From the NCBI GenBank assembly GCA_009778325.1, contig WRJZ01000030.1, positions 1 to 45,057 of the forward strand: a stretch of DNA of 45,057 bases, read 5' to 3'. Origin of the DNA: Candidatus Endomicrobium neocapritermitis (GTDB taxonomy: Bacteria; Elusimicrobiota; Endomicrobiia; Endomicrobiales; Endomicrobiaceae). The translations under genes were made by a program, and so were the position numbers. Below are positions 4,971 to 43,165 of this stretch, piece by piece. Positions within the stretch are counted from its first letter, which is position 1. Every line of letters starts with the position of its first letter. A model generated the notes under the pieces. The model was not told the origin of the DNA, ran no database searches, and worked only from the letters and a program-made list of their open reading frames with translations.

Positions 4971-4998
4971 AGTGTGAAGTTTTGAGAGTGGAGATGTT

Positions 4999-5052
4999 GT
5001 GTTTCGGCGAAGCCTAAACCTATTTAAAAGTTTTCGCTTTTGCGAAAACACC
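4999..5052. repeat. Palindromic hairpin-doublet element, copy 1
   Basis: Two adjacent hairpins: GTTTCGGC-GAA-GCCTAAAC (5001-5019, one mismatch) and GTTTTCGC-TTTT-GCGAAAAC (5030-5049), separated by an AT-rich CTATTTAAAA-like link. Outer GTGTTT/AAAACAC ends also pair. The sequence up to the next gene ends in GTCGTTAAAGGGGG, which supplies its Shine-Dalgarno sequence. Related copies lie at 28031-28077, 40832-40877 and 45007-45054, and a variant at 31707-31749. Confidence 0.75.
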
Positions 5053-5104
5053 ATAATTATTACTTATTATTTGTTATTTATTAATTGTCGTTAAAGGGGG
5101 CGCA

Positions 5105-8415: not shown

Positions 8416-8721
8416 TTGTTTTTAATACATAACGGCAAGTAACAATGAAAAATTAAAATGACCAGAAATTTTGTATTCAATGTTCCATTGACAGTTTTTT
8501 TTCTTCTCCCCTTGCGGGTGAGTGTGCGACGAATAAGCACGAGCCACGAATGGGCGCGAGATATGAGCGCACCGGAATCTAAAAACTGAAGCGAATAGAG
8601 GATTGATGGGTTGCCGTTGTCGTTGCCCAGCTTCTAAGCGTCTAAAATAGATGATGAGATGTTGTCGTTGCCGAGCCGCTGAGCTTCCGAGCTCTCCGAG
8701 CTTCTATAAAGGGGAACTGCT
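8416..8721. repeat. Intergenic element with AACGGCAA/TTGCCGTT ends, then AAGCTT-type repeat
   Basis: This 306-nt gap has no gene. AACGGCAA (8431-8438) and TTGCCGTT (8611-8618) are exact inverted ends of a 188-nt block that contains TTCTCCCCTTGCGGG (about 8501-8516), a word also found in reverse complement inside the element at 11653-11797. After it comes an inverted-repeat stretch with AGCTTCCGAGCTCTCCGAGCTTC, ending in TATAAAGGGG, the ribosome site of the ankyrin gene. Confidence 0.55.
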
Positions 8722-10416: not shown

Positions 10417-10535
10417 AACGGCAGAAGTTGGGAAGTTTAGAAGCTGAGAAGTTGAGCAACGGTAAGGACTTTAACGACAAAGCTCCTCTCAGCTTCTAAG
10501 CTTTTCAAACTTCCAAGCTTCCAAGCTTCTTTGTC
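10417..10535. repeat. AAGCTT-type inverted repeat element
   Basis: Starts with AACGGCAGAAG (10417-10427) 20 nt after the ankyrin frame ends. The left arm contains GAAGTTTAGAAGCTGAGAAG and the right arm CTCAGCTTCTAAGC, CTTCCAAGCTTCC and AAGCTTC. A middle part AACGGTAAGGACTTTAACGAC recurs almost unchanged at 11878-11900. Confidence 0.6.
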
Positions 10536-10571
10536 AACATTCCCTTGACCATAATTTGCCGTGCTGTCTAT

Positions 10572-26069: not shown

Positions 26070-27989
26070 ATGGACAATCATGTACAGGGATTTTCTCTGC
26101 TTAGTAAAGATGATATTCATCTGTTCCGCGAAGGCAGTCATTTCAGATTATATGAAAAGATGGGTTCAAAAATTGTTTCTAACGACGGCGTAAGCGGGGT
26201 TTATTTCTGCGTTTGGGCTCCGAACGCCAGAGAGGTTTCCGTCATAGGCGATTTTAATTTTTGGAATAAAAACGCGCATCATCTGTTTGCAAGAACCGAC
26301 GCTTCCGGCATTTGGGAAGGATTTATCCCCGGTATGAAAGAAGGCGATACTTATAAATATTATATTCAGTCAAACTTAAATAATTACAGCGTTGAAAAAG
26401 CCGACCCTTACGCGTTCCACGCGGAAACGCCGCAAAAAACAGGATCAAAAGTATGGGGTCTGGATTACAAATGGAACGATTCAAACTGGATGCTTTCAAG
26501 AAAATCAAAAAGTTCGATTAAAGCGCCTATATCAATATATGAAGTTCACCTCGGTTCATGGAGAAGAAATCCGGAAGACGGCAACAGATGGCTTTCATAC
26601 ACGGAAATTGCGCCGCAGCTTGCCCAATATTGCGTGGAAATGGGATTTACCCATGTTGAGTTTTTGCCCGTTATGGAACATCCTTTCGGGCCGTCATGGG
26701 GATATCAGAGCCTCGGATATTTCGCGCCGACAAGCAGGTTCGGGACTCCACAGGATTTCATGTTTCTTGTCGACACTCTCCACCAGGCCGGCATAGCGGT
26801 TATTTTAGACTGGGTGCCTTCGCATTTTCCCAATGACCAGCACGGACTCTCTTTCTTTGACGGAACGCATCTTTATGAACACGCGGACAGCAGGCTCGGA
26901 TTTCATCCCGACTGGAAAAGCGCGATTTTTAATTACGGCAGAAACGAAGTGAAAAACTTTTTAATCTCCAGCGCTCTTTTCTGGCTTGATAAATACCATA
27001 TAGACGGAATCAGAGTCGACGCTGTCGCTTCAATGCTTTATCTTGATTACTCAAGAAAAGACGGCGAATGGCTGCCCAATAAATACGGCGGAAAAGAAAA
27101 TATTGAAGCAATAGAATTTTTAAAACGTTTTAATCACGTTGTTTATGAAAATTACGACGGCGTTCAGACATACGCGGAAGAGTCCACTTCATGGCCGATG
27201 GTTTCAAAACCTACTTATCTCGGAGGGCTTGGGTTCGGATACAAATGGAACATGGGCTGGATGAACGACGTTTTAAGTTACATGAAAGTCGACCCTGTTT
27301 TCAGAAAATACCATCACAACAAATTAACGTTCAGTTTTTTATACGCTTTCAGCGAGAACTTCGTTCTTCCGTTTTCGCACGACGAAGTTACGCAGGGAAA
27401 AGGTTCTTTAATAGGCAAAATGCCCGGCGACGAATGGCAGAGATTTGCAAATCTCAGGCTTATTTTGGCGTATATGTACGCGCATCCCGGAAAAAAACTT
27501 TTGTTTATGGGCGCCGAGTTCGGACAGGTAAGGGAGTGGAACCATGAAGAAAGCCTTGAGTGGCATGTGCTCCGGTTCTGGCAGCATTCGGGTTTGCAGA
27601 GATGGGTAAAAGATCTCAACCATGCGTATAAAGATAATTATCCGTTTTTTGACAATGACAACAGTTGGGAAGGTTTTGAGTGGATAGACGCGAATGATTC
27701 TGATAACAGCGTTTTATCGTTTGTAAGAAAATCTCCTTCGACAAAAGAAACCATACTTTGCGTGTTCAATTTTACTCCGGTGCCGAAATACAATTATAAA
27801 GTAGGCGTTGACCATAGAGGAGTATGGGATGAAATATTAAACAGCGACGCCGGCGAATATTTCGGAAGCGGGCTTGGAAATATGGGCTTTAAAGAAACTA
27901 TTGACTGGGGCGCTCACGGCAGACCGTACAGCCTTGATATAACCATACCGCCGTTAGGCGCGGTGTTTTTTAAATTCAGAAACTTATAA
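26070..27989 (+). CDS. glgB: 1,4-alpha-glucan branching enzyme
   Basis: Makes alpha-1,6 branches in glycogen. The 639 residues have an N-terminal CBM48 beta-sandwich (about 10-125: GVYFCVWAPNAREVSVIGDFNFW) and a GH13 catalytic barrel. Catalytic residues are D317 in GIRVDAVASMLYLDY (nucleophile), E370 in YAEEST (acid/base) and D438 in PFSHDEV. Other hallmarks are IYEVHLGSWRR and HPGKKLLFMGAEFGQ. The long N1 domain of some GlgB proteins is missing, so it belongs to the shorter type. AAGGGG stands 8 nt before the ATG. No other glycogen gene is in the window. Confidence 0.96.
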   Translation: MDNHVQGFSLLSKDDIHLFREGSHFRLYEKMGSKIVSNDGVSGVYFCVWAPNAREVSVIGDFNFWNKNAHHLFARTDASGIWEGFIPGMKEGDTYKYYIQSNLNNYSVEKADPYAFHAETPQKTGSKVWGLDYKWNDSNWMLSRKSKSSIKAPISIYEVHLGSWRRNPEDGNRWLSYTEIAPQLAQYCVEMGFTHVEFLPVMEHPFGPSWGYQSLGYFAPTSRFGTPQDFMFLVDTLHQAGIAVILDWVPSHFPNDQHGLSFFDGTHLYEHADSRLGFHPDWKSAIFNYGRNEVKNFLISSALFWLDKYHIDGIRVDAVASMLYLDYSRKDGEWLPNKYGGKENIEAIEFLKRFNHVVYENYDGVQTYAEESTSWPMVSKPTYLGGLGFGYKWNMGWMNDVLSYMKVDPVFRKYHHNKLTFSFLYAFSENFVLPFSHDEVTQGKGSLIGKMPGDEWQRFANLRLILAYMYAHPGKKLLFMGAEFGQVREWNHEESLEWHVLRFWQHSGLQRWVKDLNHAYKDNYPFFDNDNSWEGFEWIDANDSDNSVLSFVRKSPSTKETILCVFNFTPVPKYNYKVGVDHRGVWDEILNSDAGEYFGSGLGNMGFKETIDWGAHGRPYSLDITIPPLGAVFFKFRNL

Positions 27990-27990
27990 A

Positions 27991-28120
27991 GACAAAGTTC
28001 AGAGTGCAAAGTTCAGAGTTCAAATCAGGAGTTTTCGCGAAGCGAAAACCTATTATAGGTTTCGGCAAAGCCGAAACACGACATTTGAACTTTGAACTCT
28101 GAACTTTTAACTTTGCCGTT
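27991..28120. repeat. Palindromic hairpin-doublet element, copy 2, with outer arms
   Basis: Core: GTTTTCGC-GAA-GCGAAAAC (28031-28049) and GTTTCGGC-AAA-GCCGAAAC (28059-28077), both perfect, separated by CTATTATAG. Outer arms built from GTTCAGAGTTCAAAT on the left (28011-28025) and ATTTGAACTTTGAACTCTGAA (from 28083) on the right add a third, longer stem. The right end TTTGCCGTTAAAAGGGG joins the M48 ribosome site. Confidence 0.8.
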
Positions 28121-28135
28121 AAAAGGGGTGCATAA

Positions 28136-31584: not shown

Positions 31585-32003
31585 TAATAATAAATAACGG
31601 CAAAGCATTGATATGATGGGAATTTTTAACGGCAATGATGTATCCCTTACGGGACATGATGTATCTCTGCGAGACATGCTGTGTATGCCGAGGCATACAT
31701 TAAGGAGTGCGCAAAGCGCACCTATTAATTAAGTGCGGCTTTGCCGCACACAGCAATGATGTGTCACGTAGTGACACATTACATCATGTTGCCGCAAAGC
31801 GGCAATACATCATTTCCGAAGGAAACATCATGCGCCGAAGGCGTACATAATGCTGTTAAATTTTGAAAATTTGTCTTTCATGCGTTTGTCGCGGTAGGTG
31901 TTGTGGCTGAGTTGACATCAACAATAAAAGGAAAACAGTAGATGATAAAGCTTATAAAGTCTTTTACCTATTACCTATTACCTGTTACCTATTCTCTGCC
32001 GTT
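31585..32003. repeat. Array of nine short hairpins, then AT-rich linker; no gene
   Basis: AACGGCAAAG begins the element at 31596. Hairpins: TCCC/GGGA (31643-31654), TCTC/GAGA (31664-31674), GTATGCC/GGCATAC (31683-31698), GTGCGC/GCGCAC (31707-31721), GTGCGGC/GCCGCAC (31733-31749), GTGTCAC/GTGACAC (31761-31777), TTGCCGC/GCGGCAA (31789-31805), TTTCC/GGAAA (31813-31825), CGCC/GGCG (31833-31843). Most have a three-base loop (AAA, TTT, GTA, GAA). Linkers are variants of ACATCATG or ATGATGT. Hairpins four and five with CTATTAATTAA between them match the doublet elements elsewhere. From 31874 a MITE end (TTTCATGCGTTTGTCGCGG) occurs, then TTACCTATTACCTATTACC and GCCGTT before the next ATG. Confidence 0.8.
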
Positions 32004-32825
32004 ATGTTGAATTTTTGCATCCTCGCCAGTGGTTCAAGCGGTAATTGTTCGGTTTTATGGAATGATAAAGCCGCGGTTTTAATAGATTGCGGCTGCAGCG
32101 CCAAGTATATTGCCGAAAATCTTTCCGCGCTAAACATTGCAGCAGAAAACTTAACGGCTGCTGTAATAACTCACTCGCACATAGACCATCTAAGCGCTTC
32201 CGGGCTGAATTTTCTTTTAAAAAATGAGATTCCGGTTTATCTTCACGACGACACTTTAGATGAGGTTTATCAAAAGTATGGCGCGAAAGTTGACGGGTGC
32301 CAAACCGTATCTTTCAACGAACCTTTTAAAATAAAAGATATATCTATAATTCCTTTTGACGTTTACCACAGAGACGGCAAAATAAAACGCACAATCGGAT
32401 TTACGTTTTCTTCAACCGTAAACGGACGAAAGTACAAAATAGGTTACCTTACGGACACGGGTAAAGTGTGTAAGAATATTGCGAACAGTCTGGCCGACAG
32501 TAATATTTTGGTTATCGAATCAAACTATGACCGTGAAATGCTTGATACAAGCTACAGACCGTATGAAAATAAAAGATGGGTTTTAAGCGAGTGGGGACAT
32601 CTTGACAATGAGGACGCGGCAAGAGCAATAGCCGAGATTAAGATGCGTTCTTCTGTCCGGGACAGTTTAAAGTATGTGTTTTTGGCGCATATAAGCAGGC
32701 ATCACAATCATCCGGAGCTTGCTTTGAGAGTTACAAAAGAGATGCTTTACAGCCAAAACATAACGGATATAAATCTTTTTGCCGCAAAAAGGAATCAGCG
32801 GTGCAGAACAATAAGAATAAGCTAG
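32004..32825 (+). CDS. MBL-fold metallo-hydrolase (YycJ/WalJ-like)
   Basis: Metallo-beta-lactamase-fold hydrolase, 273 residues. The metal motif THSHIDHLSA gives H57-x-H59-x-D61-H62, and later ligands lie in YLTDTGKV and in the C-terminal LAHISRHHNHPE. The opening ASGSSGNCSVL is typical of the YycJ group, which is thought to act as an exonuclease or in cell-wall control. No Shine-Dalgarno sequence is seen: GCCGTT, the right end of the repeat region, directly touches the ATG. Function in this organism is not determined. Confidence 0.88.
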   Translation: MLNFCILASGSSGNCSVLWNDKAAVLIDCGCSAKYIAENLSALNIAAENLTAAVITHSHIDHLSASGLNFLLKNEIPVYLHDDTLDEVYQKYGAKVDGCQTVSFNEPFKIKDISIIPFDVYHRDGKIKRTIGFTFSSTVNGRKYKIGYLTDTGKVCKNIANSLADSNILVIESNYDREMLDTSYRPYENKRWVLSEWGHLDNEDAARAIAEIKMRSSVRDSLKYVFLAHISRHHNHPELALRVTKEMLYSQNITDINLFAAKRNQRCRTIRIS

Positions 32826-32971: not shown

Positions 32972-33256
32972 ATGATAATAAAAAGAACATTTGTTTTTGA
33001 AAAGTGGTTTTCAAAACAAAAAAATAATATAAAAGAAATAATAGTTATTTATTTAAACAGAGTTGTTCTCGGAAATATGAGCAATTGCAAGTCTTTGGGC
33101 GGCGGGTTGCATGAATTAAAAATACATTACGGAAAAGGTATAAGGGTTTATTTTACAAATATTAACGGTGAAATAATAATTCTTTTATGCGCCGGCGATA
33201 AAAGCTCGCAGCAGGAAGATATAATAAAAGCAAAAGTTTTAAAAGAAAATTTATGA
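32972..33256 (+). CDS. RelE/HigB-like toxin of a type II toxin-antitoxin system
   Basis: A 94-residue protein of the Gp49-like/HigB group (addiction module killer). Features: FEKWFSKQKNNIKEIIVIYLNRV near the N-terminus, then GGGLHELKIHYGKGIRVYFT, the strand block conserved in this group with the basic and aromatic residues that act on ribosome-bound mRNA, and IILLCAGDKSSQQEDIIKAKVL, where GDKSSQ..DI is a family hallmark. The toxin gene comes first and the antitoxin second, the HigBA order. Twelve nucleotides separate the two. Confidence 0.88.
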   Translation: MIIKRTFVFEKWFSKQKNNIKEIIVIYLNRVVLGNMSNCKSLGGGLHELKIHYGKGIRVYFTNINGEIIILLCAGDKSSQQEDIIKAKVLKENL

Positions 33257-33268
33257 GAGGCGGTTAAT

Positions 33269-33604
33269 ATGAAAAATAATATCATGAAAACAAAAGTAAT
33301 TGAGACGGATTTTTTTGCAGATTATGCAAAAACATTAAAAAATAATCCGGCAAAGCTGCGTTCATTTAAAAAGCGCATAATAGAAGAGTATAATAAAACT
33401 AAAGATATGGCATTATTTTTGGAAAATTTAAAAATATTGGCTATGGCAAGCGGTAATGTATCTGATTTGGCTAAGAAATCAAAAATTCAAAGGCATAGCG
33501 TATATAACATATTATCAAAAGACAGCAATCCATTGCTTATGAATGTTGTTAACATTATGGATAATCTGAATATATGCTTTGTTGCAAAAACTAAAACTGC
33601 TTGA
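33269..33604 (+). CDS. HigA-like helix-turn-helix antitoxin
   Basis: A 111-residue DNA-binding antitoxin related to the HI1420-type addiction antidotes. Residues about 55-100 make an XRE-like helix-turn-helix (LAMASGNVSDLAKKSKIQR, HSVYNILSKDSNPLLMNVVNIMDNL). The N-terminal part (KTKVIETDFFADYAKTLKN) matches the antidote family. The ATG at 33269 follows GAGAGG; an internal ATG at 33284 is an alternative. With the toxin upstream it forms a complete pair and probably represses the 32917 promoter. Confidence 0.85.
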   Translation: MKNNIMKTKVIETDFFADYAKTLKNNPAKLRSFKKRIIEEYNKTKDMALFLENLKILAMASGNVSDLAKKSKIQRHSVYNILSKDSNPLLMNVVNIMDNLNICFVAKTKTA

Positions 33605-33796: not shown

Positions 33797-36700
33797 ATGA
33801 AATTTAAGAAGCTAATATCATTATTAATTTTAATAACATTTATTTTAAATATAGCGGCGCAATCCTCTTATTCTTCCATTGCCGTTTCATTGCCTGCGGA
33901 ATATAATTTAAATAAAAGTTTTGCTTCAAATTTGTATGGCAGCGGGAACGGAAATATAGTGTTTCTTGTGCAGGATTTGCACTGTCATTACGGGACGCAA
34001 AATGAAATAGCGCTGTTTTTAAAGAATATAAGCGAGAATGAAAACTTCAACAAAATATATGTGGAAGGTTTGTCAAAAGACATAAACGGCAATTTCATAA
34101 AAAACCTCCCGGAAGACATCAAAAATCCGTTAATTGAAAATTTATTTAAAGAAGGAAGGATAAGCGGTGCGGAATATTTCTTTTTAAATTCGACGAAAGA
34201 TATGCCTCTGTATGCGCTTGAAGACGAGAAGCTGTATTCCGATAACGGCCAAAGGCTGGAATACATACTGAATACGCAAAAAGAAGCCGGGAAAATAATA
34301 TCAGCGATGGAAAAAGAGATTAAAAGTTTGCGCAGGGAAAAATTGACGAACGCAAATAAAAAGATATTCTCGGCATTATTGAAATACGAAAACGGGAAGA
34401 TAAGCCAAAATAACTACTATAAATATCTTTATAAATGTTTACAAAATGTCGAAAAAACGGCACGGGGGGGGGTAAGTAATTTAAAGACGTCTGATTATGC
34501 GCATATTAAAGAGTTTATAAATCTGCCTGATAAAATAAACTATAAACAAGCGCAAAAAGAGCTTCAAGCATATCTCAACGCCGCAAAAAACATACTGCCT
34601 TACAGCGCGTACAGCGAACTTGTAAAGAACAATGAAATATACGAAAACCTGTCAAAAATAAACAAAGATTACAATATCGACATGAAAAAATACGCGGAAC
34701 TGGAAAAATCCGTGAGAGCCTATGAGTACGCGAAAAATGCCGATATGCTGAAGCTGTACAACGAAGAAGAAAGTCTGGTAAACGAAATACTGATAAAAAA
34801 CGCGAGCAACAGCGAGATAGAAACGATAATTTTGTCGTTGGCATTTGAAAAGTTTAAAAGGTTTATGACAAACAATGCCACTGACAGCGATTATAAATAT
34901 TTGGCGGAATTCGGATTGGATTATTTCGGTGAACTTTGGAATAAAAACATAGAAAGCGAAACTTTTGAGAAGATATCCGGATATATTGAAATATACAATG
35001 CGTATTATGACGCGAATAACAGAAGAAACATTGAATTCGCAAACAGAATAATATCGGGCATAGATGTAAGAAAAACGCAAAGCATGACGGTGGCAATAAC
35101 GGGCGGATTTCACACGGAAGAGCTGAAAGAGTTGTTATTGGAAAAAAACATTGACGTAGCGGTGCTGACGCCGAAAATAAGCGGCGGAATAAAAGAAGCG
35201 GAAAAAAAGTATAAAAAACTATTCGGCGAACAAGTACAAGCAGAAACAATAGGCGCCGCAATAAACGCGTATGCGTTGAGATCATATTTAAACAGCCCCG
35301 GAAAGCAAACAGAATTAATAAGCGCTTTAAGCGATGTTAACAGATTATATAAAGATAAAGCTTTCGGCAATCTTACATTAGAAGAAGTTTTTCGACAAAT
35401 AATCGATAAGTATAATAACATAGAAGATATAAAAGAAAATCCTTCCAATACGGTTTCCGTAATAGAAGTAAAAAATAACAAAAAAGGCTTTTCCGCAGTA
35501 CTAACCTTCAAAGATAAAACACATACTATCACCATAAACCAAAACGGCGATGTAGCGGTGTCTGGTCAGACAATATCCGGCAAAGACACAAAATTAAAAC
35601 CAGGTTCTCTATTAAACGATCGTTTCAAAAACAAAGACAGCAGACTTTACAAAGCATATACAATACTTATCGCGCCGTTGTGGGAAGAGTGGGTGTTTAG
35701 AGGCTTTCCCATAATTATAGCTGTGGCGGTTTCAATAAATCCGCTGATACTTTTAATACCAAGCGGCATATTGTTTGTCGCACTGCATAAAATATTTAAC
35801 AAAACATTGACGCCGAAAGATTTGGCAAAGCTTGGCATAGTGACAGCGGTATATACGGCAGGAGCGTTTATTCTGCCTGCAATTCCGGTGACGGGATTTC
35901 TCTTTGAGGCGCTTCAATCTGTAACAGGCTTTATAATACCTTCGGTTGTTGCGCATACCGTATACAACGCGCTTGTAGTATACGGCATATTGAAAGACTA
36001 TCCCGTTTCTTCGATAGGCAATGAAGAAGAAGCAGACAGTATAGAAAAAAGGAGAAGGCTGTTGTTATCTTTTGGAGACCGGGAGGATAGGGAATATATT
36101 TCTATTTTTGCTGAATATTCTAAAATAACTCCGCAGGAGCTAGAAAAACTTATTGAAAAATATGGCAAAAAACCGTGGTTTAAAGAACTGTTTTCAGGAA
36201 AATATAGTATATGGCAGCTAACAACCGACAATATAGAAATAATAAGAATGCTGGCGTCTTTGGGAGATGATTATGTTAATAGAAATACTATTGATTTTGC
36301 CATAGATTCTAAAATGACTTCAGGTCAGTTTGAAAAATATAGCAAAGAACTCTGGCTTGAAAGATTGTTTTCAGAAAAGTATAGTTTGAGTCATTTAAAA
36401 ACTGACGGTATAGAAAAAATAAGAATGTTGGCGTCTTTGGGAGATGATTTTGTTAATCGAAACACTGTTGGTTTTGCCACATATTCTAAAATGACCTCAG
36501 GTCAGTTCGAAAAACTTATTGAAAAATATGGCAAAGAACCGTGGTTTAGAGAACTACTTTCAGGAAAATATGATACTTCAGATTTAACAACTAAAAATAT
36601 AGAAGAAACAAGAGAGAAAATAAGAATGCTGGCGTCTTTGGGAGATGATTTTGTTAATAAAAAAACTATTGATTTTGCTATAAATTCTAAAATGACCTCA

Positions 36701-39700
36701 GGTCAGTTCGAAAAACTTATTGAAAAATATGACAAAGAACCGTGGTTTAAAGAACTATTTTCAGGAGAATATAATATTTCAGGTCTAACAACTAAAAGTG
36801 TAGAAGAAATAAGAGTAATGGCATCTTTGGGAGATGATTATGTTAATAAAGTAACTATTGATTTTGCCTGCAATTTCTCAAAGCAGTTAGAAGAGTTTAT
36901 TGAAAAATATAGCAAAGAGCCGTGGTTTAAAAGACTGTTTTCAGGAGAGTATCGTATATGGTCGGATTTAACAACTGAATTTATAGAAAAAATAATAATG
37001 CTGGCATCTCTTGGAGATGATTGTATTAATCAAAAAACTATTGATTTTGCTAGAGATCAATATAGTACAACACCCTTAAAGCAGTTAAAAGGACAGATTA
37101 AACAATATGGCAAAGAACTATGGTTTAAAAAACTGTTTTCAGGAAAGTATGATATTACATTTTTAGAAATTAAACATATAGAAATAATAAGAATACTGTC
37201 ATCTCTTGGAGATAATTATGTTAATGAAAAAACTATTAATTTTGCCACAAGGCCTCATTCTGTACTAGTCTCCTACCCAGAGGAGTTCAAAAAACTTATT
37301 GAAAAATATGGCAAAGAACCGTGGTTTAAAGAACTACTTTCAGGGAAGTATGATATTAGGGATTTCACTCCTGAAAGTATAGAAAAAATAAGAATACTGT
37401 CATCTCTTCTTGGAGATGATTATATTAATCAAAAAAATATTGATTTTGTTGTACGTTCTGAAATGTACTCAAGTCAGTTCGAAAAACTTATTGAAAAATA
37501 TGGCAAAGAACCGTGGTTTAAAGAACTGCTTTCAGGAGAGTATGATATTAGAAATTTAACTCCTGAAAGTATAGAAAAAATAAGAATACTGGTATCTCTT
37601 GGAGATGATTATATTAATCAAAAAAATATTGATTTTGCCGTACGTTCTGAAATGACTTCAGACCAGATCGAAAAACTTATTGAAAAATATGGCAAAAAAT
37701 CGTGGTTTAAAGAACTGTTTTCAGGAAAGTATCGTATATGGAATTTAACTCCTAAAAGTATAAAAAAAATAGAAATATTATTATCGCTTGGGGTAAATGT
37801 TGCCCAAAATGTCATCAATTTTGCTATAAATTCTGCGGTGGTTTCTTGGGAGTTGGCAGGACACAGAGAATATATTCATAAAATGAAATCTGTCTTTTCA
37901 ATAGAAGAAATAACTATAGAATTGATAAAATTTGCAATAGAAATGAAAGATATTAACGATAAAATATTAAAAGATAAAAAAGAAATATATTTAAAAATGC
38001 TTTCAATGGAAAATTTGTTTGACGATACTCCGGAAGAAGTTATTCAAAATTTAAGGGAAGGTAAATTGAGTTTTAAAGAATTGGTTATATGGTCGGAAGA
38101 CGCAAATAAACATAATATAAACGGTACATATCCTGAAAGCATTAAAAAATTAAGGAAGGATTTGGATAAAGTAAGCGATGTGATTGCGAAATACGATAAA
38201 GCTTATAAAGTAGGCAAATTTTTTGAAATCAGAACAAATTATACATTGGATGAATTATTGCAGAATGATGACAGGTTAAGATTATATATAGATGAAATAA
38301 TATACGCGGTTTACGATATAGAGAGATTATTGAAAGATAAAAAGCAAGATACGAGCGCTTTAAGCAGTATACTGAATAGAAAGCCCAATGGCCGTGATTA
38401 TGATTATCATTTTGTCAGAGGAAACGGAATAGAATATAGTTTGACAATGAGAAATGTTGACAATTACGCGATAGGCGACAGAACAGGCGATTGCACAGGT
38501 ACAAATCACGGAGCTGTTAATAGAGCGAATTTTAGAGGCAAGTGGCTGATGCATCCTGATTATGAAGTGCTGCAGGTGTTTATAGACGGTAAGTTTACAA
38601 ACAGGTTTGATTTTATTGCGGGAAAAGTCAATGACAAGCCGGCAATACTTATTCACGCACAGGAAAATATTCCCCAGTTTAGGGACGGCACGAGTTCTTT
38701 AATAGATCAAAGGGATATCGCATATTATAAAGCATTGAATTATCTTATAGAATTTGCAAAAAGGAACGGTTTTGAAGAAGTTTATGTAAATTCAATTTCA
38801 AACAGCAGTGATATAAGTAAAAAAAGTAATGCAGTGTCAAAAAAATTTAACGGTGAAGTTTATTATCCTTATATAAATTTGCAAGATAACCGTAGTTGGC
38901 GTCTAGTATCTCAGGAAAAAGTTAAAGAACAAATATTGCAAGAGGAGTCGTTGTTAGGTGAAAAGCAATTTAAAACTTTAAAGTTAAAGCAAATAAAATC
39001 GCTTATAGAAAATGAGCTATTTGAAAGAGTATATATAAAAGGCAACGAATATATTATACCTGTTTCCGATAATGTTGCCGTAAGATTTGCAATGGAGGAT
39101 GTGAAACAGGGGATAGTTAATCACAATTTTAATAATGAAGCGAATGGAAATCCTGATGAAATACAACAACAAGACAATAATCAACAACAAAGAAAAAAAG
39201 AAAGAATGATGTCGAATTTTATAAATATTGCCAACATAAAGTTAGATTCATATGAACGTAAAGAATTCGAAAGCATTTCAGCGCAGGAAAAAAGCTCTTT
39301 ATTAAATGCCGGAATAAGTGCGAAATTTAATATAGATATCTTTAATTCATTAGATATGCTGTCATTGTCAATAGAAAGTTTATTTACGGAAAACAATGCT
39401 GACAGATTAACGTCAAAGCTTAGGCTTTTAATTAATTGGGGTAAATTATACAAACTTGACGACGATTATGCGGCAGTTATAGGAAAAACAAAAGACGGAC
39501 AAACGGCTGTAGTGCGTTACAGGCAGGAAGATAAATCAAAAGCAGAGCTTAAACTTACTAGCAAGATAGAAGTAGTAAAAGACGAAGGCGCTATAGCAAA
39601 ATCGGATGAAATTAAAGAAGAGGCAACGGTTAAAAGGGTAAAAGGCGTATTGCTTTCCAAAAGAGGTTTACCTGCCGTTGACGCGAGTCTTATAAAAGAC

Positions 39701-40321
39701 GCAATAAAAGAAGATTTTAAGACATATTTTGATAATTCCGATAAACAAACTATAATAGTATATATAGACAGTAAGATATTAAAATTTCAAGTTGACATAT
39801 CGCTTTGGAACGAATCTAGATATGCGGGCAGCTTGGAATTCATAAGTCCTCAAGCGTTGCCGGTATCGCCGGCGTTTGTTGAAGATGGCATAAGATCAGG
39901 TTTATATAATGCAAATATAAATCCGATTACGGACAGACAGCAAAAAGACGTAAAAGTTTCAATAGACGAATTGGCAAATTCAAGATTAAAACCTGTATCT
40001 GTATTTCCTAAAGGCAATCTTTCATCCGACGAACATGAAAAAGTAAAAGAGTTATTAAAAGTTGATTTCTCTTCATTATCACTAAAAGATCTGCATTTAA
40101 TAATGCGTTGTGCTGTTGAAACGAATGATTTAAACCTTGCTTCAAAAGTGGAAGCCGCTTCAAAGAATCAATGTACCGGTAATGCAGAGGATCATAAAAT
40201 TCTTATTGCCATAACGGAACTTTACATAGTGATAGACCCGGTAAGTGAAGATTTTACTGTAAATATTCCCACAGAAAATATTAGCTTTCAACAAATATCT
40301 TCAATGCTTGCCGCCGCGTAA
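33797..40321 (+). CDS. Giant mosaic exported protein: ChaN/Tiki-like domain, CPBP protease, nine tandem repeats
   Basis: A 2174-residue protein, complete in the window. Residues 1-22 form a signal peptide. About 50-490: a domain with VFLVQDLHCHYG (H62, H64), YVEGLS (E90) and ITGGFHTEEL (H439), consistent with the ChaN/EreA/Tiki superfamily (inference). About 610-735: a hydrophobic CPBP-type protease core with E630-E631-W-V-F-R635, F660-x-x-x-H664 and H720-x-x-x-N724, the three motifs of that family. About 755-1350: nine repeats of about 60 residues (GKEPWFKELFSGKYDI, IEKIRMLASLGDDYVN, TIDFA). About 1540-1700: an unidentified domain with GDRTGDC (1560-1566). The last 450 residues are hydrophilic, ending SSMLAAA. 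A G9 tract lies at 34464-34472. Function unknown. Confidence 0.85.
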   Translation: MKFKKLISLLILITFILNIAAQSSYSSIAVSLPAEYNLNKSFASNLYGSGNGNIVFLVQDLHCHYGTQNEIALFLKNISENENFNKIYVEGLSKDINGNFIKNLPEDIKNPLIENLFKEGRISGAEYFFLNSTKDMPLYALEDEKLYSDNGQRLEYILNTQKEAGKIISAMEKEIKSLRREKLTNANKKIFSALLKYENGKISQNNYYKYLYKCLQNVEKTARGGVSNLKTSDYAHIKEFINLPDKINYKQAQKELQAYLNAAKNILPYSAYSELVKNNEIYENLSKINKDYNIDMKKYAELEKSVRAYEYAKNADMLKLYNEEESLVNEILIKNASNSEIETIILSLAFEKFKRFMTNNATDSDYKYLAEFGLDYFGELWNKNIESETFEKISGYIEIYNAYYDANNRRNIEFANRIISGIDVRKTQSMTVAITGGFHTEELKELLLEKNIDVAVLTPKISGGIKEAEKKYKKLFGEQVQAETIGAAINAYALRSYLNSPGKQTELISALSDVNRLYKDKAFGNLTLEEVFRQIIDKYNNIEDIKENPSNTVSVIEVKNNKKGFSAVLTFKDKTHTITINQNGDVAVSGQTISGKDTKLKPGSLLNDRFKNKDSRLYKAYTILIAPLWEEWVFRGFPIIIAVAVSINPLILLIPSGILFVALHKIFNKTLTPKDLAKLGIVTAVYTAGAFILPAIPVTGFLFEALQSVTGFIIPSVVAHTVYNALVVYGILKDYPVSSIGNEEEADSIEKRRRLLLSFGDREDREYISIFAEYSKITPQELEKLIEKYGKKPWFKELFSGKYSIWQLTTDNIEIIRMLASLGDDYVNRNTIDFAIDSKMTSGQFEKYSKELWLERLFSEKYSLSHLKTDGIEKIRMLASLGDDFVNRNTVGFATYSKMTSGQFEKLIEKYGKEPWFRELLSGKYDTSDLTTKNIEETREKIRMLASLGDDFVNKKTIDFAINSKMTSGQFEKLIEKYDKEPWFKELFSGEYNISGLTTKSVEEIRVMASLGDDYVNKVTIDFACNFSKQLEEFIEKYSKEPWFKRLFSGEYRIWSDLTTEFIEKIIMLASLGDDCINQKTIDFARDQYSTTPLKQLKGQIKQYGKELWFKKLFSGKYDITFLEIKHIEIIRILSSLGDNYVNEKTINFATRPHSVLVSYPEEFKKLIEKYGKEPWFKELLSGKYDIRDFTPESIEKIRILSSLLGDDYINQKNIDFVVRSEMYSSQFEKLIEKYGKEPWFKELLSGEYDIRNLTPESIEKIRILVSLGDDYINQKNIDFAVRSEMTSDQIEKLIEKYGKKSWFKELFSGKYRIWNLTPKSIKKIEILLSLGVNVAQNVINFAINSAVVSWELAGHREYIHKMKSVFSIEEITIELIKFAIEMKDINDKILKDKKEIYLKMLSMENLFDDTPEEVIQNLREGKLSFKELVIWSEDANKHNINGTYPESIKKLRKDLDKVSDVIAKYDKAYKVGKFFEIRTNYTLDELLQNDDRLRLYIDEIIYAVYDIERLLKDKKQDTSALSSILNRKPNGRDYDYHFVRGNGIEYSLTMRNVDNYAIGDRTGDCTGTNHGAVNRANFRGKWLMHPDYEVLQVFIDGKFTNRFDFIAGKVNDKPAILIHAQENIPQFRDGTSSLIDQRDIAYYKALNYLIEFAKRNGFEEVYVNSISNSSDISKKSNAVSKKFNGEVYYPYINLQDNRSWRLVSQEKVKEQILQEESLLGEKQFKTLKLKQIKSLIENELFERVYIKGNEYIIPVSDNVAVRFAMEDVKQGIVNHNFNNEANGNPDEIQQQDNNQQQRKKERMMSNFINIANIKLDSYERKEFESISAQEKSSLLNAGISAKFNIDIFNSLDMLSLSIESLFTENNADRLTSKLRLLINWGKLYKLDDDYAAVIGKTKDGQTAVVRYRQEDKSKAELKLTSKIEVVKDEGAIAKSDEIKEEATVKRVKGVLLSKRGLPAVDASLIKDAIKEDFKTYFDNSDKQTIIVYIDSKILKFQVDISLWNESRYAGSLEFISPQALPVSPAFVEDGIRSGLYNANINPITDRQQKDVKVSIDELANSRLKPVSVFPKGNLSSDEHEKVKELLKVDFSSLSLKDLHLIMRCAVETNDLNLASKVEAASKNQCTGNAEDHKILIAITELYIVIDPVSEDFTVNIPTENISFQQISSMLAAA
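36120..37830 (+). repeat. Nine in-frame tandem repeats of about 180 bp within the giant gene
   Basis: The words GAAAAACTTATTGAAAAATA, CCGTGGTTTAAAGAACT and TCTTTGGGAGATGATTATGT recur. The repeats around 37290 and 37480 are almost identical over more than 150 bp, showing recent duplication or gene conversion; others have diverged or carry short insertions. Repeat number may vary between strains. Confidence 0.85.
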
Positions 40322-40732: not shown

Positions 40733-40788
40733 CGGAGTTAACCTTTATAAAGTTCAAATTAAACTTTAAAGGTTAACTCTGTTTTTTT
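40733..40788 (+). terminator. Rho-independent terminator after DUF5679 gene
   Basis: GAGTTAACCTTTA (40735-40747) pairs with TAAAGGTTAACTC (up to about 40779), extended by an inner AAGTT/AACTT with a small bulge, and is followed by a GTTTTTTT run. It is one of the strongest terminators in the window. Confidence 0.88.
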
Positions 40789-40796
40789 AACTACAG

Positions 40797-40920
40797 AGTT
40801 AAAAGTTCAGAGTTCAGAGTTTAAATGAGGAGTTTTCGCTTTGCGAAAACCTATATTAGTTTTGCCGAAGGCGAAACACATTATTTGAACTTTGAACTCT
40901 GAACTCTGAACTTTGTCTTT
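40797..40920. repeat. Palindromic hairpin-doublet element, copy 3, with outer arms
   Basis: Core: GTTTTCGC-TTT-GCGAAAAC (40832-40850) and GTTTTGCC-GAA-GGCGAAAC (40859-40877, one G-U), with CTATATTA between. Outer arms AAAGTTCAGAGTTCAGAG (from about 40803) and TTTGAACTTTGAACTCTGAA (from 40884) pair. It ends in TTGTCTTTAAGGAG, the tex ribosome site. Confidence 0.8.
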
Positions 40921-40930
40921 AAGGAGCGTT

Positions 40931-43096
40931 ATGAGCAGCGGCGACAGGATAATTAATTGGATAGTTTCTGATTTGAATTTGCCGGAAGGCGGCGTTCGCA
41001 ATACAGTGATGATGCTGGGCGACGGGGATACCGTGCCTTTCATATCGCGTTACAGAAAAGAAAAAACCGGCAATTTTGATGAAGTAAACATCAGAGATAT
41101 AAACGATAAACTTCAATATTATATAGAGCTTGAAACAAGAAAAGAAACGATTTTAAGCAGTATTGAAGAGCAGAAAAAAATGACTCCTGAGCTTAAAAAG
41201 CTTATAGAGGAATGCAAAGAGAAAACAAAGCTTGAAGATATATATCTGCCGTATAAACCAAAACGCCAGACAAAAGCCACTATAGCCAAAGCCGCAGGTT
41301 TGGAGCCGCTTGCCATAGAAATTATGGAACAGAAACGCGGCATGAAAGAAAACAAAGAAGAGATAATTAAACCGTTCTTAAATCCTGAAAACGGAATAGA
41401 TACAATAGAAAAAGCTCTTACAGGCGCAATAGACATAATAGCCGAGCAAATTTCCGACAATGCCGCAATAAGAGGAATGCTTAGGGCATTTATATTGGCA
41501 AACGGGAACTTGCGCTCGAAAGCTACAAAGGCTGCGGCAAACTTAAAAACAAAGTATGACATGTACTATGATTATAATGAATCTTTAAAAGCTATTCCCG
41601 GACACAGGCTTTTGGCAATACGCCGCGGCGCTAAAGAAGAAGTTTTATCATGGAAGATAGTTCTTGAAGACGATCAGGCCGTGGATTTGATACTTTCCAA
41701 AATGATAAAAAATAAAGGAAACATGTCGCTTTTTTATCCTGAACTTTTTCAGGCGGTACAGACTTCTTATGACAGACATTTGTATCCTTCGCTTCAGGTT
41801 GAAATATTTTTGGCTAAAATGGATGACGCTGACAAAGACGCAATAGACGTTTTTGCAAAAAATGCCAAAAATCTTTTGTTAGCTCCTCCTGCCGGACACA
41901 AAGTTATTATGGGTGTTGACCCGGGATTCAGAACAGGCTGTAAAGTAGTTGTTATAGATACAAACGGAAATTTTAAAGAGTTTCACGCGATTTTTCCGCA
42001 TGAACCTGCTTTAAGAGTTGCAGAGGCTGAAGATATTGTTGTTGACCTTATAGAAGAGTATTATGTTGAGCTTATAGCAATAGGCAACGGAACAGCTTCT
42101 AAAGAAACAACTACATTTATCAACAATGTTTTAAAGAAACACACTTTTAAAGTAAGCCCGAAAGTTATTGTGGTCAGCGAAGCGGGCGCTTCTGTTTATT
42201 CGGCGTCGCCTTTGGCAACGGCCGAATTTCCGAATTTGGACGTTACCGTAAGAGGCGCGATAAGCATAGCAAGAAGATTGCAGGACCCTCTTGCCGAACT
42301 TGTCAAAATCGATCCGAAATCGATCGGCGTGGGGCAGTACCAGCATGACGTTAACCAGATACAGCTCAAAAAACAGCTTGACGGCACCGTGGAGTCCGCA
42401 GTTAACTTCGTAGGAGCGAATTTGAACTCCGCTTCGATAGAGTTACTATCTTATGTTTCTGGCATAGGCAAAACCGTGGCAAAAAATGTTGTTGCCTACA
42501 GAACGAAAAACGGTTCTTTCAAAGATAAAAAAGAGCTTACGAAAGTTACCGGCCTTGGCGATAAAACATTTGAACAGTGCGCCGGATTTTTAAGAATTCC
42601 GGGCGGTTTGAACCCTCTTGATAATTCAGGCGTTCATCCGGAAAGATATTTAGTCGTTGAAAAGATGGCGTCTGATTTGGGCGTTAAAATGGAAGAACTT
42701 ATAGGAAACGAAACGCTGATAAAGAGAATTGACCCTAAACAGTATGTTTCGGAAAGCGTAGGGCTTCTGACTTTAAATGATATAATACAAGAGCTTCGAA
42801 AGCCCGGCGTTGACCCGAGAAAAGATTTTTCCACCGCCGAATTCAGCGACGATGTCAATACTTTGGACGACCTTCAGGAAAATATGGTGTTAAACGGGAC
42901 AGTCACAAATGTGACTAACTTCGGCGCTTTTGTGGATATCGGCGTTCATCAGGACGGGCTCGTGCATATTTCAAAACTCAGCAATAAATATATAACAAAT
43001 CCGCACGAAGTCGTTTCCGTTGGCGATACGGTGAAAGTAAGAGTTTTGAAAGTTGATACTGAATTAAAAAGAATAAGTTTAGAGGTAGTGCGTTAA
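40931..43096 (+). CDS. tex: Tex-like S1 RNA-binding transcription accessory protein
   Basis: A 721-residue nucleic-acid-binding protein that supports transcription and stress tolerance. The ATG at 40931 follows AAGGAG by 4 nt; the longer frame from a TTG at 40913 begins inside repeat DNA. Order of parts: N-terminal helical domain (DTVPFISRYRKEKTGNFDE), YqgF/RNase H-like domain (VIMGVDPGFRTGCKVVVID), helix-hairpin-helix (LLSYVSGIGKTVAKNVVAYR and VTGLGDKTFEQCAGFLRI), and the C-terminal S1 domain (GTVTNVTNFGAFVDIGVHQD, LVHISKLS). The stop TAA overlaps the AACGGCA end of the next intergenic repeat. Confidence 0.95.
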   Translation: MSSGDRIINWIVSDLNLPEGGVRNTVMMLGDGDTVPFISRYRKEKTGNFDEVNIRDINDKLQYYIELETRKETILSSIEEQKKMTPELKKLIEECKEKTKLEDIYLPYKPKRQTKATIAKAAGLEPLAIEIMEQKRGMKENKEEIIKPFLNPENGIDTIEKALTGAIDIIAEQISDNAAIRGMLRAFILANGNLRSKATKAAANLKTKYDMYYDYNESLKAIPGHRLLAIRRGAKEEVLSWKIVLEDDQAVDLILSKMIKNKGNMSLFYPELFQAVQTSYDRHLYPSLQVEIFLAKMDDADKDAIDVFAKNAKNLLLAPPAGHKVIMGVDPGFRTGCKVVVIDTNGNFKEFHAIFPHEPALRVAEAEDIVVDLIEEYYVELIAIGNGTASKETTTFINNVLKKHTFKVSPKVIVVSEAGASVYSASPLATAEFPNLDVTVRGAISIARRLQDPLAELVKIDPKSIGVGQYQHDVNQIQLKKQLDGTVESAVNFVGANLNSASIELLSYVSGIGKTVAKNVVAYRTKNGSFKDKKELTKVTGLGDKTFEQCAGFLRIPGGLNPLDNSGVHPERYLVVEKMASDLGVKMEELIGNETLIKRIDPKQYVSESVGLLTLNDIIQELRKPGVDPRKDFSTAEFSDDVNTLDDLQENMVLNGTVTNVTNFGAFVDIGVHQDGLVHISKLSNKYITNPHEVVSVGDTVKVRVLKVDTELKRISLEVVR

Positions 43097-43165
43097 CGGC
43101 AATTACAAATTACTAATTACGAATTAACGGCAAAGGCAAAACGGCAATTACTTCTAAACGGCGAA
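43095..43165. repeat. ATTACGAATT-type repeat with AACGGCA words
   Basis: AACGGCAATTAC starts at 43095 on the tex stop codon, then ACTAATTACGAATTAACGGC, AACGGCAATTAC again and AACGGCGAAAGGC. It fills the space up to the ABC gene and leaves it without a clear ribosome site. Confidence 0.55.

Follow-up and report, generated by a model that had tools for sequence, protein, structure and literature searches.

The nine mini-hairpins that first drew attention to this stretch of DNA (the window, by which we mean all 45,057 nucleotides analysed, from contig WRJZ01000030.1 of Candidatus Endomicrobium neocapritermitis) belong to a multi-copy palindromic element that is probably mobile. Namely, they lie within one copy, at 31627..31860 on the + strand, of a repeat family (family A) that has inverted ends, here holds a second repeat (core B) inside it, and shares its architecture with elements built around S23/IVP four-helix-bundle open reading frames (ORFs). 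The reading that we prefer, and consider reasonably likely, is that the window element is a dispersed foldback element, MITE-like and non-autonomous, which represents the ORF-less form of the S23/IVP class and would be propagated in trans.

The limits of the element were set from its inverted ends, from the family alignment and from other copies. The ends form an inverted pair, TAACGGCA at 31627-31634 and TGCTGTTA at 31851-31858, and between them the stem scan recovers all nine hairpins that the first-pass annotation had placed at 31643-31843, each a perfect stem of at least 4 bp. On the + strand these are TCCC(TTAC)GGGA at 31643..31654, whose slot is occupied likewise in other copies; TCTC(TGC)GAGA at 31664..31674; TGTATGC(CGAG)GCATACA at 31682..31699; hairpins 4 and 5 at 31707-31721 and 31733-31749, both inside core B; GTGTCAC(GTA)GTGACAC at 31759..31779; TTGCCGC(AAA)GCGGCAA at 31789..31805, found in almost every copy of family A; hairpin 8 at 31813-31825; and CGCC(GAA)GGCG at 31833..31843, for which family comparison was used as well. 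Core B (31694..31761, +) has the form GGAG-hairpin-CTATTAATTAA-hairpin-ACAGCA and was matched by the covariance model with 34 bits (E 2.9e-5). Hairpin 8 is contained in an inverted module, ACATCATTTCCGAAGGAAACATCAT (31807..31831, +), which stands in the right half of the element and is the exact reverse complement of a left-half module in copies on contigs C48 and C50 (copy C50b). The linkers read ATGATGT or ATGCTGT in the left half and ACATCAT in the right and are complementary across the hairpins, making nested folds possible, as had been supposed. The earlier statement that most loops have three bases holds for seven of them, the other two having four (TTAC and CGAG), and its picture of a nine-hairpin run has to be widened: the hairpins are real, and the true extent is that of one repeat-family copy, 31627-31860.

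The fold of 31622-31864, taken as one strand, has a z-score of -9.8 (DNA) or -10.1 (RNA) relative to dinucleotide shuffles, none of 200 being as good. When 445 kb of the genome (19%, taken as stretches) was scanned, no further run of six consecutive stems of at least 5 bp was found; runs of at least four weak stems numbered 45, against 24 in one Markov-shuffled set, and because this is only a mild excess, the weak-stem criterion alone is not striking. Chance hairpins are ruled out by the fold z-scores together with the conservation and covariation within the family, and a known RNA family was rejected, no Rfam match being found in the window.

A search of the whole genome (2.38 Mb in 54 contigs) returned 62 matching pieces, which correspond to roughly 25-30 family A copies, many of them exactly at contig ends, where the assembly seems to have been broken by the repeat. 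The family has relatives in three of the four congeners examined. The typical copy measures ~180 bp, and the window copy and two copies on contig C52 are longer (~230-245 bp) because of their extra two-hairpin core. In the left half, a terminal inverted repeat (TIR) with the consensus (T)TAAC(G/T)(G/A)CA is followed by four units of ATGATGT and a hairpin and then by a short middle; in the right half, ACATCAT alternates with three hairpins (four heptamers) up to the second TIR. The heptamers of the left half are complementary to those of the right half in nested order, each junction bearing a mini-hairpin, and in the model that we propose a single strand could form a stack of four-way junctions from which the mini-hairpins project as side arms.

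Across 15 family A copies 95% of the cells pair, 22 cells are changed on both sides, one-sided paired states in the hairpins number zero, and the covariation score is 0.074, a value reached in 0 of 500 shuffles, as compared with 0.038 after shuffling. RNAalifold preferred an alternative long-range pairing and did not fully recover the hand-drawn nested fold; the heptamer pairs show almost no variation and so carry little information, which means that the hairpins are supported and the junction stack stays a model. The number of hairpins differs among copies, and in the congener G003 one unit is tandemly duplicated and the heptamer is mostly ATGATAC, rather than ATGATGT, in both halves. There is, moreover, a tendency, and only a tendency, towards TNC triloops on the left (53 of 68) and GNA triloops on the right (30 of 52), the figures for core loops and for background being 19/42 and 48/280. 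It is the linkers and the core, not the stems, that make up the constant part of the family. Several further claims of the first-pass annotation find their answer here. That structure is kept while stems differ is confirmed by the compensated stem changes in family A and, as discussed below, in core B; hairpins are indeed gained as units, and they are lost, duplicated and inverted as well. Setting CRISPR aside was right, the varying parts being palindromic stems and the constant 7-nt parts being inverted between the halves, and REP/RAYT likewise finds no support, there being no constant stem, although the GGAG ahead of the first core hairpin is reminiscent of a REP tag. The proposed copying process that makes new palindromes keeps its place because stems change in a concerted way and G-U intermediates are almost absent; the data accommodate selection and copying alike.

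One could take the last point further and argue that the whole pattern is mutational: replication template switching (quasipalindrome correction) would make and perfect palindromes in fast-evolving intergenic DNA, with nothing mobilised. Such a process would account for the blocks of compensated stem changes and the absence of one-sided paired states in the hairpins, for the module inverted across the axis, for arms that differ wholesale at the same site between the window genome (G000) and G001, and for ATGATAC in place of ATGATGT in the G003 copies, but it leaves unexplained both the near-identical copies at unrelated loci, with their common TIR and fixed linkers, and the empty sites in relatives. 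We consider a purely mutational origin decidedly unlikely; template switching may nevertheless be a contributing process.

The core found in the window element is itself a repeated unit. Its consensus is GGAG-hairpin-CTATTAATAG-hairpin-ACAACA, and elsewhere it is enclosed by long inverted arms consisting of imperfect 7-bp tandem units. The covariance model places core B at 46 positions in the 445 kb, which extrapolates to ~250 per genome. Its hairpin stem cells are Watson-Crick in 705 of 718 cases (98%), those of the arms in 268 of 315 (85%), and in stems that were preselected 12 of 23 core pairs are doubly changed, with a covariation score of 0.42 versus 0.14. The arms have a 7-bp period, their autocorrelation reaching 0.66 for a lag of 7 and 0.63 for a lag of 14 over a background of 0.26; arm types include AGAGTTC, AGAGTGA, TTAGTAG, TTAACAA, TGGTTAA and others, left being matched to right within each. 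The TIR (T)TAAC(G/T)(G/A)CA is enriched at the ends of these elements (left 24/46, right 32/46, background 14%), although the matches are only partial, a point that counts against the reading we prefer. One of 21 strictly defined elements lies in a predicted ORF, and all 20 others lie between co-directional genes, closely fitted into the space from the stop codon of the preceding gene to the start of the following one; in most cases 11-48 nt separate that stop codon from the core. As a separate observation, a foldback element in G003 (L266) has a GTCATTGCGAG..CGAAGCAATCC palindrome in the place of core B or an ORF, which suggests that the core is interchangeable.

The window holds several such elements besides the one with nine hairpins. 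A second foldback element with core B (27987..28121, +) supplies, with its terminal TAA, the stop codon of glgB (27987), and this junction is empty in the congeners G002 and G004. Another (40788..40922, +) precedes tex and immediately follows a T run that resembles a terminator, and the remnant of an element with ATTACGAAT arms (43094..43132, +) begins at the tex stop codon (TAA, 43094); both of these sites are empty in G002 and G004, and in G001 they carry elements with different arms. The covariance model also identified a core B element interrupted by the contig end (44985..45057, +) and an additional match between two co-directional genes (4989..5061, strand not given). Further long imperfect inverted repeats, with 7-mer arms of the GAAGCTTGG type, were seen at 8430-8720 and 10420-10560. 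Among the neighbouring genes, 33797-40321 encodes a protein of 2174 aa that has a CPBP/Rce1-like domain and in which a repeat of the LIEKYGKEPWFKELFSGKY type occurs about eight times, and the two small ORFs at 32972-33604 are presumably a pair of RelE/HigB-type toxin and HigA-type antitoxin.

Comparison with congeners and with tRNA genes tells how these elements are distributed. In a pst-like operon, elements of G003 occupy junctions that are empty in G000, and one of them gives the upstream gene its TAA stop codon. Family A copies lie 0 nt from the 3' ends of tRNAs for Ala, Leu, Glu, Ser, Leu and Met and 3 nt from that for Tyr, and an S23 element on contig C46 starts directly after tRNA-Arg. 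No clean target-site duplication was readable, divergence between the sites compared being too great. Several features by which MITEs are recognised are present, namely TIRs, many dispersed short non-coding copies and, for sibling elements, empty sites in relatives. Where G000 and G001 share sites with differing 7-mer arms (L162, L163, L164 and L159, compared with window 40788-40922 and 43094-43132), it is as if both arms had been replaced in concert, or the site had been hit twice. Such shared sites could also speak against our preferred reading, in the sense that they could reflect local retention with arm turnover instead of transposition.

Would the same placement be expected if the elements simply served their host? 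Namely, the element could be a cis-acting RNA, i.e. a transcribed operon spacer, perhaps cut by RNase III, through which the neighbouring messages would be insulated or given different stabilities, its copies being kept for this function and not as selfish DNA. Covarying stems and the tight fit between stop and start of co-directional genes (20 of 20 assessable core B elements) agree with such a role, as does the excision of stems of 23S rRNA intervening sequences (IVS) by RNase III (PMC4990558), but a functional spacer sits poorly with junctions that are empty in G002 and G004, with an abundance that is patchy even inside one genus, with copies at tRNA 3' ends and nested and tandem copies that resemble insertion, and with hairpin G-U pairs that are fewer than drift at the RNA level would give. 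We regard a host function of this kind as unlikely, and return to an element that would be mobilised.

The link to S23/IVP proteins comes from the arms. At the site in the sister species G001 that is orthologous to that of the window element there is an intact four-helix-bundle ORF (TIGR02436, PF05635; structural relatives 2rld and 2gsc), flanked by GATAATAG-type arms with GGCAG ends. In the window, a remnant of the 3' end of such an ORF (..LTSTIKGKQ*), recognised by eye against the intact G001 ORF (..LTATVKTIKGKQ*), is found at 31912..31941 (+), followed at 31961..32004 (+) by a right arm (TTACCTATTACCTATTACC...) and a TGCCGTTA end, identified from inverted repeats and congener comparison; these belong to an older outer element, inside which the mini-hairpin element is nested. 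The mini-hairpin element has 7-bp-periodic arms, with heptamers interrupted by hairpins, and an end of the TAACGGCA type, and there is no S23/IVP ORF inside it, the remnant at 31912-31941 belonging to the outer element, for which reason we file the mini-hairpin element as an ORF-less relative and not as a full member of the class that we propose. More generally, the arms and ends of core B elements match those around S23/IVP ORFs. As a side observation, two family A elements (L083 and L171) stand immediately upstream of the same type of S23/IVP ORF, in G000 and G001.

In a sample of the phylum, 55 of 79 S23/IVP ORFs have complementary flanks with a score of at least 20, as do 1.1% of mismatched upstream and downstream pairs. 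We extended this to a collection of 84,980 species genomes, using a profile built from four close S23 proteins, since one from 20 was too diverse for the contig scan; the ORFs so found came from Bacteroidota, Bacillota, Spirochaetota, Rickettsiales, Synergistota and others. Such arms surround 55 of 77 S23/IVP ORFs compared with 0 of 102 other ORFs of the same loci, and mismatched flank pairs reach 6.6% here because arm types recur. By eye, 7-mer arrays around the ORF are also seen on plasmids of Treponema saccharophilum, Euhalothece, Nostoc and Bernardetia. Within the bacterial family to which the window genome belongs, S23 ORFs are present in all seven genomes with at least eight cores and in six of the 29 others, a co-distribution with a hypergeometric probability of ~2e-4, which is uncorrected for phylogeny and refers to cores found in two genera only. 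Other points, too, weigh against our preferred reading: the S23/IVP ORFs of the window genome number only two, compared with ~250 elements that have none; core B is absent from G002, which does have an S23 ORF; and the S23 ORF may be no more than a passenger, its arms having another origin.

What enzyme could move such elements? The analysis identified neither a transposase nor any other enzyme that would mobilise the element, and the larger relatives of the window element encode S23/IVP and no known transposase. The window genome does have three Y1 transposase genes, and an element of the REP/BIME type, moved by a RAYT transposase of the Y1 (HUH) kind with GGAG and a hairpin as its recognition site, would be consistent with these genes, with the GGAG that precedes the first core hairpin and with the resemblance of the two close hairpins to a REP doublet. 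However, two of the genes, L037 (G000:C52) and L039 (C44), have another inverted repeat on their two sides, TGTCAAGGGGACG(G/T)AG..TTGACA, the third (L038, G000:C47) has directly upstream a ATTACGAAT (AACGGCAATTACGAATTACG..) foldback without the core, and no Y1 gene was detected in two carriers of the elements, G014 (a single contig with eight cores) and G003 (incomplete). The stem is, furthermore, not constant, and long arms and a TIR enclose the array. The Y1 transposase was rejected as the driver on account of the other repeats at two of three genes and its non-detection in G014 and G003, and we consider a REP/BIME identity highly improbable. Decayed copies resembling the TGTCAAGGGGACG repeat were noted near window 11840 and 33690. 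Similarly, no RVT_1 match was found in the window genome; RNA-mediated copying by a resident reverse transcriptase was rejected for this reason, and the enzyme was equally not found as the mark of a diversity-generating retroelement (DGR).

Taken as an element mobilised in trans, the window element would insert at the junctions of genes and the 3' ends of tRNAs, positions in which its TAA can act as a stop codon, by means of a trans-acting machinery that would recognise the TIR, the folded single strand, or both. The S23/IVP protein may be a nucleic-acid-binding accessory of this machinery, a helper role that its family resemblance to Avd of DGRs makes plausible by analogy. The perfect stems might arise if only foldable copies were mobilised or tolerated, if template switching inside the palindrome rewrote one arm from the other, or both. 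In particular, a module that stands inverted on the other side of the axis and the replacement of ATGATGT by ATGATAC in the G003 copies as a whole are compatible with arm-to-arm copying, which is favoured as a contributor by the concerted blocks, the module inversion and the wholesale replacement of arms at one site.

More tentatively, S23/IVP genes in 7-mer arms could represent a widespread unrecognised mobile class with structure-guided mobilisation, the hairpin chains being its non-autonomous forms with palindromes renewed by arm-to-arm copying, a generalisation that is possible and for now somewhat doubtful. In the open-access literature searched, no publication was found that links S23 ORFs to inverted heptamer arms. 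The S23/IVP family, which is abundant and has no assigned function outside rRNA and DGRs, would gain a strikingly general genomic context, and the 7-mer arrays scattered through many bacterial genomes a possible explanation. What is more, the elements offer a natural series of perfect palindromes, a test bed for compensatory stem changes in which selection can be set against template switching.

It is instructive to compare these elements with known systems. PF05635 proteins are described as similar in sequence and structure to Avd, an accessory that DGR retrohoming requires (PMC10053308), but DGRs with Avd differ from the present case in that no reverse transcriptase was detected in the window genome. 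With REP/BIME and TIR-associated tyrosine-transposase elements our elements share intergenic palindromes whose stems covary and a short tag, GGAG in the present case (PMC3733652); unlike in REP/BIME, there is no cognate Y1 gene flanked by the same repeats, no constant palindromic stem, and it is the linkers that are fixed. MITEs and foldback elements are likewise short, non-coding, dispersed, bounded by inverted ends and present or absent between species, whereas the arms here are 7-mer arrays that vary by copy and the internal hairpins are variable yet perfect. The IVS of 23S rRNA, known with S23 ORFs and RNase III excision from Leptospira and Coxiella and proposed to be of mobile origin, are similarly small, have complementary ends and in their larger form encode the same four-helix-bundle family (PMC4990558). 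In contrast to these, the window element is intergenic and not in a 23S rRNA helix, and elements of its kind are found at gene junctions and tRNA ends, in hundreds of copies, with arms of 7-bp units and mostly with mini-hairpins instead of an ORF. Finally, the heptameric direct repeats of Beggiatoaceae and others (STRR-like; TAACTGA), described in a text that makes no mention of S23, are also intergenic 7-bp tandem units near gene ends (PMC4679880), but the heptamers here are paired in inverted orientation and enclose either a hairpin core or an S23/IVP ORF.
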